A stretch of 64,000 nucleotides of DNA, taken from NCBI RefSeq assembly GCF_900090305.1, contig NZ_LT607751.1, forward strand, positions 3,038,001 to 3,102,000. The letters are read 5' to 3'. This DNA comes from Micromonospora siamensis (lineage in GTDB: Bacteria > Actinomycetota > Actinomycetes > Mycobacteriales > Micromonosporaceae). The position numbers and the translations under genes were made by a program. Shown here one piece after another: positions 5,040 to 56,576 of the stretch (position 1 is its first letter; every line of letters starts with the position of its first letter). The notes under the pieces were generated by a model. It saw only the letters and a program-made list of their open reading frames with translations, was not told where the DNA came from and ran no database searches.

Positions 5040-5978
5040 ATGACCGCCCCGTTGAGCCAGACCGCCCTGCTCCTGGAACTCGAAGCCGTGGTGGAGAAGA
5101 ACCTCGACCGGCACCTCTCGATGGCCAAGGAGTGGTTCCCGCACGAGTACGTGCCGTGGAGCGAGGGCCGCACGTTCGACGGCCCGCTCGGCGGGCAGGC
5201 GTGGGCCGAGACCGACTCGACCATCCCCGACGTGGCGCGTACCGCGCTGATCGTCAACCTGCTCACCGAGGACAACCTGCCCTCGTACCACCACGAGATC
5301 GCCACCCTCTTCGGTCGGGACGGCGCGTGGGGGAACTGGGTGCACCGGTGGACCGCCGAGGAGGGCCGGCACGGCACCGCCATCCGCGACTACCTGACGG
5401 TGACCCGGGCGGTGGACCCGGTGGCCCTGGAGCGGGCCCGGATGACCCACATGTCCGCCGGCTACGTCAACGCGCACGGCGACGAGGTGCTGCACTCCCT
5501 GGCGTACGTCTCGTTCCAGGAGCTGGCGACCCGGATCTCGCACCGCAACACCGGCCGGGTGACCGGCGACCCGGCGTGCGAGGCGCTGCTGGCCCGGGTG
5601 GCCGCCGACGAGAACCTGCACATGGTCTTCTACCGCAACCTGCTCGCGGCCGGTTTCGAGCTGGCGCCGAGCCAGGCTATGCGGGCGGTGGCCGACGTGC
5701 TGGCCGACTTCCAGATGCCGGGCGCCGGCATCGACGGCTTCGCCCGCAAGTCGGTGGCGATCGCGCTGGCCGGCATCTACGACCTGCGCCAGCACCGCGA
5801 CGAGGTGGTCGCTCCGGTGCTGCGGCAGTGGAACGTGTTCGAGGTGACCGGCCTGGACGCCGACGGCGAGGCCGCCCGCGACCAGATCGCCGCCCACCTC
5901 GACGCGCTGGAGACCGCGGCCTCCCGCTTCGAGGAGAAGCGCGCCGCCCGGGCCGCCCGCCTCGCCGCCGCCCGCTGA
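5040..5978 (+). CDS. Acyl-ACP desaturase (soluble diiron fatty acid desaturase)
   Basis: The 312-aa ferritin-like protein of the DesA/stearoyl-ACP desaturase family introduces a double bond into acyl-ACP using O2 and reduced ferredoxin. Diiron ligands are recognisable: Glu77 in LLTEDNL, ExxH at Glu108-His111 (AEEGRH), and a second ExxH at Glu191-His194 (DENLH). There is no membrane segment, as expected for this soluble class. The gene is monocistronic, with a perfect palindrome overlapping its ribosome site (5002-5030), so it is probably tightly repressed. It meets the thioesterase gene tail to tail four bases downstream. Confidence 0.92.
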   Translation: MTAPLSQTALLLELEAVVEKNLDRHLSMAKEWFPHEYVPWSEGRTFDGPLGGQAWAETDSTIPDVARTALIVNLLTEDNLPSYHHEIATLFGRDGAWGNWVHRWTAEEGRHGTAIRDYLTVTRAVDPVALERARMTHMSAGYVNAHGDEVLHSLAYVSFQELATRISHRNTGRVTGDPACEALLARVAADENLHMVFYRNLLAAGFELAPSQAMRAVADVLADFQMPGAGIDGFARKSVAIALAGIYDLRQHRDEVVAPVLRQWNVFEVTGLDADGEAARDQIAAHLDALETAASRFEEKRAARAARLAAAR

Positions 5979-9420: not shown

Positions 9421-9438
9421 GAGCAGGGGCCCCTTCTC
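9421..9438. repeat. Imperfect palindrome at the rearrangement junction
   Basis: GAGCAGGGGCCCCTTCTC is GAG-x-AGGGGCCCCT-x-CTC, symmetric except for one position in each arm. It lies exactly where the MFS remnant stops, and it supplies the stop codon of the convergent membrane-protein gene. Similar AAGGGGCCCCTT-centred palindromes are, as far as I recall, common between genes in Micromonosporaceae; only this copy of that form is present here. Confidence 0.5.
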
Positions 9439-10036
9439 AACACCGCGCCCGGCGCAGCCGGAGCACCACCAGCAGGGGGCAGAGCGCCTCCGCGCCGGCC
9501 GCCAGCCGCTCGGCGAGGCCGATCCGGTCGCCGCCGCCGACCAGTTCGACGGTGAACCAGCCGACCAGGAGCAGCAGCGCCGCCGCTGCGGTCGTACCCG
9601 TGCCGGTGGAGAGTCCGGCGGCCCGGTCGGGCGCGCGGCGGCCGGCGACGGCGAGCGCCGGCCAGAGCGCGAGGGCGCCGAACGCGACCGCGGCGGCCGT
9701 CGCGTGCGGCGCCGACGAGCCACCCCCGGCCGGCAGCGGCAGGGCCGCCACCGCGAGGGTGGCCGCGCCGCCGAGGGCGAGCAGCGCCCGGCCAGCCGGG
9801 CGCGCGGGCCGCAGCCCGGCCGCCGTGACGAGGTGGCACAGGCCGAGGCCGGCCAGCGCGACCGTCATGATCCACCGGTCGGTCGCGTCGTGCCCGGCGA
9901 GGGCGCTGATCGTGCCGGTGACCGCATCGAAGCCGCCGGGCTGGCGGGCGGCCGCCAGCGTCCAACCGCCGATCAGCAGCGTCGGGGCGGTCGCGGCGGA
10001 GATCAGGGCCCACGGGGGTACGACGCGCACCCGCAC
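9437..10036 (-). CDS. DUF998-like integral membrane protein
   Basis: This is a 199-aa protein of about six hydrophobic segments: ALISAATAPTLLIGGWTL; a segment after DRWIMTVALAGLGLCHLVTAAG; RALLALGGAATLAVAALPL; TAAAVAFGALALWPALAVAG; TAAAALLLLVGWFTVELVGG; and a C-terminal segment. Pattern and spacing fit DUF998 proteins, whose function is unknown. The GTG at 10036 is chosen because the longer frame begins with Cys/His/Arg-rich, unlikely sequence. Its TGA stop falls inside the junction palindrome at 9421-9438, so the original C-terminus may have been altered by the rearrangement. Confidence 0.65.
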   Translation of the reverse strand: MRVRVVPPWALISAATAPTLLIGGWTLAAARQPGGFDAVTGTISALAGHDATDRWIMTVALAGLGLCHLVTAAGLRPARPAGRALLALGGAATLAVAALPLPAGGGSSAPHATAAAVAFGALALWPALAVAGRRAPDRAAGLSTGTGTTAAAALLLLVGWFTVELVGGGDRIGLAERLAAGAEALCPLLVVLRLRRARC

Positions 10037-10140: not shown

Positions 10141-10265
10141 CCTTTGCTCTGCTGCAACGGACGCAACACGGCCATGAGCTGCGCCGTCATTGTTTCTACG
10201 AGCAGGGCGAGTCGGACGGGCCGTTGCGCTGAGCAACTGTTGCGTGGATTGCAGCAGAGCAAAGG
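10141..10265. repeat. Structured palindromic element, copy A (125 bp)
   Basis: The outer arms CCTTTGCTCTGCTGCAA (10141-10157) and TTGCAGCAGAGCAAAGG (10249-10265) are perfect 17-bp inverted repeats. Inside a 3x3 loop a second helix ACGCAACA (10161-10168)/TGTTGCGT (10238-10245) forms. Further pairing is possible at CGGCC/GGCCG (10169-10173/10219-10223) and TTGC/GCAA (10224-10227/10233-10236), giving a branched structure. It lies between divergent genes, upstream of aspS. Copies B and C are at 45813-45944 and 56494-56576. No coding capacity or target duplication is evident. Confidence 0.85.
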
Positions 10266-45812: not shown

Positions 45813-45944
45813 CCGCCTTTGCTCTGCTGCGCCCCACGCGACACCGATGGTGAGCTGCCTGGTCGCATTCTGGCCCGATCTACCAGAACGGCTCACTGGC
45901 AACCGTGCGTGACTGTCGCGTGGGTTGCAGCAGAGCAAAGGCGG
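45813..45944. repeat. Structured palindromic element, copy B (132 bp)
   Basis: The outer arms CCGCCTTTGCTCTGCTGC (45813-45830) and GCAGCAGAGCAAAGGCGG (45927-45944) are perfect 18-bp inverted repeats. A second perfect 11-bp helix, CCCACGCGACA (45833-45843)/TGTCGCGTGGG (45914-45924), is separated by a 2x2 loop. Inner pairings include GGTGAGC/GCTCAC (45849-45855/45891-45896) and the hairpin TTCTGG/CCAGAA (45868-45873/45883-45888). It lies between aroQ and efp. Confidence 0.87.
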
Positions 45945-56493: not shown

Positions 56494-56576
56494 CCTTTGC
56501 TCTGCTGCACCCGGCGCAACGCTGCCCGTCCGGTATCCGGACGTTCGGGGTTGCGCGGGCCGCAGCAGAGCAAAGG
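56494..56576. repeat. Structured palindromic element, copy C (83 bp)
   Basis: The outer arms CCTTTGCTCTGCTGC (56494-56508) and GCAGCAGAGCAAAGG (56562-56576) are perfect 15-bp inverted repeats. The second helix is GCGCAAC (56514-56520)/GTTGCGC (56550-56556). The apical hairpin is GTCCGG-TAT-CCGGAC (56528-56542). It is shorter than copies A and B, the apical part being reduced. It lies between pyrD and bioA. Confidence 0.85.

Follow-up and report, generated by a model that had tools for sequence, protein, structure and literature searches.

Palindromic copies in the window

Three palindromic copies, A, B and C, were found in the window, the whole stretch of 64,000 nucleotides of Micromonospora siamensis analysed here. 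Copy A (121 bp, 10143..10263) stands between a DUF998 gene (called at 9437-10036, minus strand) and an Asp-tRNA synthetase-type gene (called from 10502, plus strand; both by Pfam), the true start of the latter being probably further upstream than 10502, and it is among the few copies sitting between divergent genes. Its left arm, TTTGCTCTGCTGC in the TGC spelling, occupies 10143..10155 on the plus strand, with the inner box GACGCAACA four bases inside it at 10160..10168 (plus). Both are found again in inverted form, the box at 10238..10246 (minus; TGTTGCGTG on the plus strand) and the arm TTTGCTCTGCTGC at 10251..10263 (minus).

Copy B (122 bp, 45818..45939) lies between a type II dehydroquinase gene and efp, both on the plus strand (Pfam). 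Its arms are at 45818..45830 (plus) and, inverted, at 45927..45939 (minus), and its inner boxes at 45835..45843 (CACGCGACA, plus) and, inverted, at 45914..45922 (minus; TGTCGCGTG on the plus strand). Copy C (56496..56574), of the 79 bp class, separates a dihydroorotate dehydrogenase gene from a class-III aminotransferase gene (both plus; Pfam), the second being bioA-like by inspection. The arms of this copy occupy 56496..56508 (plus) and 56562..56574 (minus, inverted), and the core of the inner box, GCGCAAC at 56514..56520 (plus), returns inverted at 56550..56556 (minus; GTTGCGC on the plus strand). A 79 bp element is present at the same place in genome G254.

The initial annotation described invariant arms around interiors that differ. 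In the window sequence the 13-bp arm pairs of the three copies are indeed all exact inverted matches. The interiors vary in length and sequence as it said, but most copies share, by eye, a looser inner box, GACGCAACA/TGTTGCGTC, on the inner side of both arms at a distance of about four bases.

Number, length classes and placement of the copies

Across the genome, a single contig of 6,250,119 bases, the 13-mer has 38 exact matches, 19 per strand, against 0 for its reversed spelling. The genome holds 22 elements and not only the three first counted: 16 have both arms exact and 6 have one imperfect arm, with 1-3 changes each. They fall into length classes of 120-123 bp (14 copies), 111-113 bp (3), 79 bp (1) and 67 bp (4). 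The base just outside the arm is C at all 44 arm ends of these copies, and no fixed tag is found further out at the same 44 ends, neither GTAG nor CGTC.

Placement relative to genes was followed in 99 distinct copies from the M. siamensis genome and 80 named loci, with both 10-mers exact and genes called by our own script. Convergent gaps hold 39 of them, co-directional gaps 41 and divergent gaps 5, with 12 unplaced and 2 inside an ORF by our own ORF caller, in agreement with the intergenic position initially reported. Among the other gaps of 150 bp or more in these stretches, 14 are convergent, 82 co-directional and 52 divergent (p=9e-12). The mapping to gene ends that had been proposed therefore returns a convergent bias (39/85 placed copies against 14/148 background gaps): the copies prefer places where genes converge and are scarce in divergent gaps. 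Along the chromosome of M. siamensis they are spread over the whole length (KS against uniform, p=0.87).

Some loci hold copies in tandem or nested in one another, with about 34-82 bp between the repeated arms, namely L108 (G254), L083 (G205), L085 (G121), L087 (G075) and G292:C63 14237-14445, which suggests local duplication. At L082 (G276), two direct arm matches lie 1373 bp apart in identical surroundings, and here a gene was probably duplicated, the arm matches being due to chance and not to elements.

Conservation of arms, interiors and flanks

The closest comparison was with G035, very probably M. mirobrigensis DSM 44830; its XRE protein (see below) is identical to one named for M. mirobrigensis (P0001). 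At 14 common sites, 4/364 arm positions have changed (1.1%), against 267/1195 in the interiors and 251/1113 in the 40-bp flanks (22-23%), the arm identity being somewhat inflated since the G035 loci were selected by the presence of an exact arm, one or both (the first 30 of 39 matches yielded 17 loci, 14 of which matched an M. siamensis copy) and the M. siamensis copies likewise. With one arm per site set aside, a rate of 22% would still put about 40 changes in the other arms, against the 4 seen in both. Between M. siamensis and G254, the changes are 8/156 in arms, 217/507 in interiors and 209/465 in flanks. In more distant genomes they are 10/286, 463/833 and 459/854, respectively, in a group where some pairs may share only the neighbourhood and possibly represent independent insertions. 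The arms are therefore kept, and the rest of the element drifts at the rate of its flanks.

Folding of the copies

All six strands of copies A-C fold better than shuffled sequences (z -5.1 to -9.6), because a long inverted repeat must fold in this way. The C-rich left and G-rich right flanks noted in the initial annotation are real, but the lengthening of the stem attributed to them is not copy-specific: swapping flanks between copies gives a mean of 138.6 flank pairs, the 144 pairs of the real copies are reached by 1020/5000 permutations, and the flank duplex energy of the real copies was reached by 45/300 swaps. Outer-flank pairing was therefore rejected as structural evidence.

Within 158 distinct 67-nt copies, in which arm positions 1-10 were fixed at selection and are therefore uninformative, pairing near the loop reaches 0.60, against 0.42 after shuffling. 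For the conserved inner box the values are 0.72 against 0.66 and 0.63 against 0.48 with shuffled partners. An Rfam scan of the window gave no family at gathering score over the copies. The only family to reach that score was ASdes (in Rfam, a TB sRNA), at window positions 5361-5428 (minus), with 71.3 bits against a gathering score of 40.

Arm spelling across the genus and turnover of sites

Arms occur in most of the 121 genomes of the genus, which extends to relatives the search suggested in the initial annotation. They read TTTGCTCTGC followed by a species-typical ending, TGC, TTC, AGC, ACC or ATC. The TGC arm is present in 42/121 genomes and the TTC arm in 50/121 (single matches included), and genomes rich in one of them mostly lack the other, with TGC/TTC counts of 38/0 in M. 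siamensis (G000), 39/0 in G035, 0/39 in G003 and 0/72 in G039. A few are mixed (G032, 11/7; G044, 10/7). Among 20 genomes with neither TGC nor TTC, 14 matched the pattern TTTGCTCTGCNNC, the endings among the matches listed being mostly AGC, ACC or ATC, and a few elements of these genomes carry two different endings (G021, G025). By this pattern, 79/121 genomes have at least 10 arms and 17/121 have no arm at all.

None of 244 genomes outside the family has more than 5 matches, a number that the reversed control also reaches. Carriers of the short TGC and TTC classes belong, among the matches listed, to Micromonospora, Verrucosispora and Asanoa. A phage or plasmid origin was considered and rejected: the paired TGC/TTC pattern is absent from viral contigs, and phage and plasmid records gave no xre protein at E<=1e-15. 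Integron attC-like sites were another candidate, which was set aside.

Gene-end sites of M. siamensis were located in three TTC species, and 1 of the 21 sites found holds an element: that of E19 in G063, 67 bp long, with TTC arms and at the same distance of 110 bp. A change of spelling is therefore mostly site turnover and not re-spelling in place, which for all sites finds no support at 1/21. Of ten gene-end sites queried, E08 and E20 had no counterpart. The efp gap of copy B, which is not among the 21 sites, was inspected in 30 other genomes. Elements are found there in G035, G010, G254 and G038 (TGC) and in G003 and G017 (TTC-type), and a single arm in G044. The stretches of G001, G005 and G016 end too early, and the rest show none.

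In G041, the gene ends that flank E09 are 7 bp apart against 536 in M. siamensis, and those that flank E11 are 135 bp apart against 346; the stretch gained or lost therefore exceeds the palindrome. In the other five empty-site comparisons the sequences did not align cleanly. Target-site duplications were looked for with 5 elements against 7 loci and none was seen, the boundaries of the empty sites there not being clean.

Other repeats were observed in the same kind of gap. L160 (G004), some 45-213 bp upstream of efp, holds a different inverted-repeat insertion with perfect ends beginning CTAGGGCGTGTTTCAGAAGTG. Small palindromes, TSAC-N4..6-GTSA, are seen in the flanks of 120-123 bp copies, about 25-80 bp beyond the arms, and also at gaps with no element: in the zone 25-100 bp outward from the 44 arm ends 12 matches begin, for which the window rate predicts fewer than 1, and the near form (one mismatch allowed) has 537 matches genome-wide. 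They are possibly a second repeat family at gene ends.

An XRE gene beside the elements

In G157, an arm pair 1484 bp apart encloses an XRE-type gene, relatives of which adjoin elements across the family. We compiled 93 loci of this gene (xre), covering 72 of the 75 xre-bearing genomes of the genus (G044, G057 and G087 left out) and 21 others, six of them hand-chosen. Both arms lie within 650 bp upstream of xre in 85/93 loci (one mismatch allowed in the 10-mer), and 67 bp is the spacing of 57/77 element-like arm pairs found there. In 70/93 loci hemB is within the fetched stretch. The DnaA-type 9-mer TT(A/G)TCCACA occurs within 400 bp upstream of xre in 75/93 loci and stands between element and gene in 70/70 loci having both; around other copies, 8 such 9-mers were found in 822,027 bp. 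These boxes, conserved in most species and several genera (L303-L402), suggest a link of xre to replication control.

Inverted ends matching over arm and inner box flank xre in G146 (36 of 48 bases), G217 (35) and G157 (35). An arm is located downstream of the gene in 4/93 loci, so xre is rarely inside an element.

A match to xre (E<=1e-25) is present in 75/121 genomes of the genus, one in each. The median is 23 arms in these genomes (n=75) against 2 in those lacking xre (n=46; p=5e-15), and at least 10 arms are found in 70/75 against 9/46 (p=3e-17), p values in which the genomes are related and kinship is ignored. Five xre-bearing genomes have fewer than 8 arms. At least 8 arms are kept by 14/46 xre-lacking genomes, led by M. 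siamensis with 38; the protein is therefore not needed for upkeep of the sites in the short run.

M. siamensis retains a remnant of xre beside hemB (L049 3633-3816, minus; about 6237332-6237515 of the genome) with the middle deleted, matching some 24 N-terminal and 37 C-terminal residues, where the G035 gene is whole. Its elements are still intact, so the loss looks recent: 32/38 exact arms have an exact partner. In a hand-picked few of the genomes with a complete list of arms, the partner of an exact arm is itself exact in 8/17 cases in G004 and G006, both lacking xre, against 68/77 in the xre-bearing G034, G115 and G021 (p=0.0005).

The XRE protein and the arm endings

The protein P0001 matches HTH_31 with 31 bits (cut-off 27) and HTH_3 with 23.7 (cut-off 23), and its N-terminal fold is of the Cro/CI type (fold comparison, residues 24-87). 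Only HTH families were matched, with no match to Y1_Tnp. About 85 residues follow the HTH, with many invariant positions in the alignment. For them, Pfam, NCBIfam, PHROGs and PADLOC gave nothing above curated cut-offs, and PDB sequences gave no match beyond residue 92 of the profile. Two AlphaFold models have pLDDT block means of 46-81 in residues 91-140. The C-terminal region contains invariant D, R, H, W, E, T and R residues, which could form an active site. The named matches, among the best 120 of 635, 585 and 405, presumably all belong to Micromonosporaceae, and the names that family members bear among the matches listed go no further than helix-turn-helix or XRE protein.

As a measure of association between spelling and the columns of the protein, raw mutual information was rejected as clade-driven, and near pairs and a hemB tree were used instead. 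The column with the greatest contrast between near pairs of different and same spelling is residue 54 in the numbering of G035, which immediately precedes the recognition helix (modelled at 55-62): it differs in 55% of 130 pairs with different spelling against 3% of 209 with the same, 14/93 loci having been left out for an ambiguous arm label or a short C-domain. With 15/93 loci left out on the same grounds, arm position 11 is A for 39/39 proteins with H or N at residue 54 and a residue other than G at 56, against 3/39 of the others.

Helix types and endings correspond further in 79 labelled loci. H-P-(T/S/A)-T goes with AG (16/17), H-H-A-T with AC (14/17, the other 3 having AG), H-H-G-T with TG (5/5), and (A/S)-P-(S/A)-T with TT when followed by E-(A/S)-G (20/22) or with TG when followed by E-T-G (6/6). 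Some rare types also fit (H-A-T-T with AG; A-A-S-T/E-T-G with TG), and others are H-A-S-T with AC (2) and N-H-S-T with AT (2) or AG (1). Misfits occur in other genera, namely E-T-G with AC in G205, S-H-G-T with AC in G137 and A-Q-G-T with AT in G217, and a further exception is an E-A-G protein with TGC in the mixed genome G032.

A DNA tree of hemB, independent of xre, was built from the 48/93 loci with enough hemB sequence, 45 of them labelled. Along it, the residue-spelling trait has 6 supported independent pairs, of which a mean of 5.8 change in the same direction and 0 against it (p=0.03), and a second trait has 5 such pairs, a mean of 4.9 the same way and never opposite (p=0.06), the helix residues having been chosen after viewing the residue-spelling table. 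A tree of the C-terminal domain was set aside as too poorly supported, with 1 supported independent pair only.

Discussion

The spelling of the arms and the DNA-reading part of the protein change together across species, and they therefore look like a coevolving repeat family and its dedicated DNA-binding partner. We suggest that the palindromes are probably dispersed paired targets of one dedicated XRE protein, and that the pair behaves like REPIN/RAYT, with an unrelated protein in the place of RAYT. It seems very likely that the arms are read by this protein. It may only bind, as an architectural or regulatory factor of the host, for which the chances appear nearly even; that it also drives copying is a possibility we hold somewhat short of even.

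Each arm (TTTGCTCTGC plus the species-typical ending, with the inner box four bases in) would be one recognition site, and two sites facing each other across a spacer of fixed class would make one docking place, so that two bound protein units could be brought together. One copy stands before the protein's own gene, usually beside hemB, and the others would be copies of copies, resting at gene ends and retained for as long as they are legible to the resident protein. With a change of the recognition helix, the lineage would gain a set with the new spelling and largely lose the old one. Physical binding, bridging, and the promotion of copying by this protein rather than by an unseen transposase are what we infer. 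A new two-part mobile DNA, in which the copying and spread of a repeat would require a Cro/CI-type protein whose C-terminal domain is so far unnamed, and helix and sites would be re-spelled together, is a more doubtful proposal.

The palindromes could instead be chromosome-organising or regulatory sites of the host, the XRE protein being an architectural or global factor, the palindromes its paired operators and mobility incidental or ancient. We consider this reading only a little short of an even chance, since the arms are selectively conserved at common sites, the copies span the whole chromosome, 75 genomes have a single xre match each, with hemB nearby in 70/93 loci, and the DnaA-type boxes perhaps put expression under DnaA control. 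However, 39 convergent and 5 divergent positions among 85 placed copies (14 and 52 of 148 in the background) make a poor spot for transcriptional operators, and the fixed length classes across species argue for copying and not for independent birth of operators. Moreover, 17/121 genomes are armless and M. siamensis has lost the protein, so the system is dispensable. Both this reading and that of a mobile system require the protein to read the sites. The copies might also be ordinary MITEs of an insertion sequence whose transposase was missed, and xre would then be either a passenger or the repressor of this transposase. Such MITEs would suit the inverted ends, the fixed length classes, the tandem copies, the lineage-specific sets and the xre gene between matching ends in three genomes, but neutral ones would not hold 13-bp arms at 1-5% change against 22-43% elsewhere, and covariation with a recognition helix is unexpected of a passenger. 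By eye, three long-spaced exact arm pairs (G157 twice, G121) contain one xre gene and no transposase, the units with matching ends that were inspected carry xre and no recognised transposase, and we regard this origin as quite unlikely.

Bidirectional terminators or insulators, with the XRE protein as an optional roadblock, would account for the convergent bias (39/85 against 14/148), yet neither arm of copies A-C is followed by a U tract, only 22 copies are present in a genome of 6.25 Mb, and what is kept is the arm sequence and not the strength of the stem; we consider this unlikely. The family of structured RNAs put forward in the initial annotation, or RNase III-type processing hairpins at 3' ends, is very improbable, although the folds of both strands are very stable, copies sit at gene ends and the 158 distinct 67-nt copies have some excess pairing inside. 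This covariation inside the arms is modest, exceeding shuffled partners only slightly at the inner box, both strands are palindromic, no Rfam family matches there, and invariant arms with species-typical spelling point to recognition of sequence.

The non-autonomous mobile or REP-like element that had also been considered for copy A fits the findings: the copies are dispersed and intergenic, in fixed length classes and lineage-specific sets, and one of them is beside a dedicated gene. The partner protein and the species-typical spelling of the arms go beyond that proposal. If true, a DNA-binding helix and its sites would here form a natural pair that has been re-coded repeatedly, with five arm endings in one genus and helix types to match. 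It would bear on how the specificity of a protein can change with tens of sites relying on it, and on why REPIN-like repeats persist for long, and it would give a lead to the function of a conserved protein family named only helix-turn-helix or XRE.

Comparison with known systems

ERIC, Correia and other MITE-like repeats are also palindromic intergenic copies of about 70-130 bp in size classes; to our knowledge, none has a linked DNA-binding gene or a species-typical spelling of its arms. With MatP/matS, ParB/parS and Noc the elements share the arrangement of one protein and tens of short chromosomal sites. Those sites, however, are single short palindromes with neither copied spacers nor length classes, the XRE protein is unrelated, and the copies have no regional clustering in the M. 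siamensis genome. From controller proteins of restriction-modification systems and from Cro/CI repressors the system differs in its tens of dispersed sites and in a region after the HTH with no library match above a curated cut-off.

Within the open-access literature searched, the 13-mer and its complement are absent, and nothing on the family appears among the papers listed for palindromes, MITEs, REPs or XRE proteins of Micromonospora and for actinobacterial REP transposases. The absence of a named family, stated in the initial annotation, thus stands for this literature. Five actinobacterial terms are absent from the main text of PMC3733652, a paper whose title names the GTAG or CGTC tags of REPs.

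The closest resemblance is to REPIN/RAYT systems, in which, according to passages of PMC3116915 and PMC8049555, REP doublets form hairpins and are accompanied by REP-associated tyrosine transposases, with 430 doublets in P. fluorescens SBW25. Here the gene linked to the repeats codes for a Cro/CI HTH protein, its C-terminal region unnamed, instead of a Y1 transposase. The arms read C-TTTGC, without GTAG or CGTC tags, and are 41, 53 or about 95 bp apart, and at most 72 of them (36 pairs) were seen per genome against the 430 doublets given for SBW25 in those passages. As far as the same passages go, both kinds of element consist of two short, strongly conserved sequences in inverted orientation on either side of a spacer that is conserved less but matters by its length, both are intergenic and hairpin-forming, with singlets as decay products, and both have one vertically kept cognate gene beside a copy, which in our case is xre.
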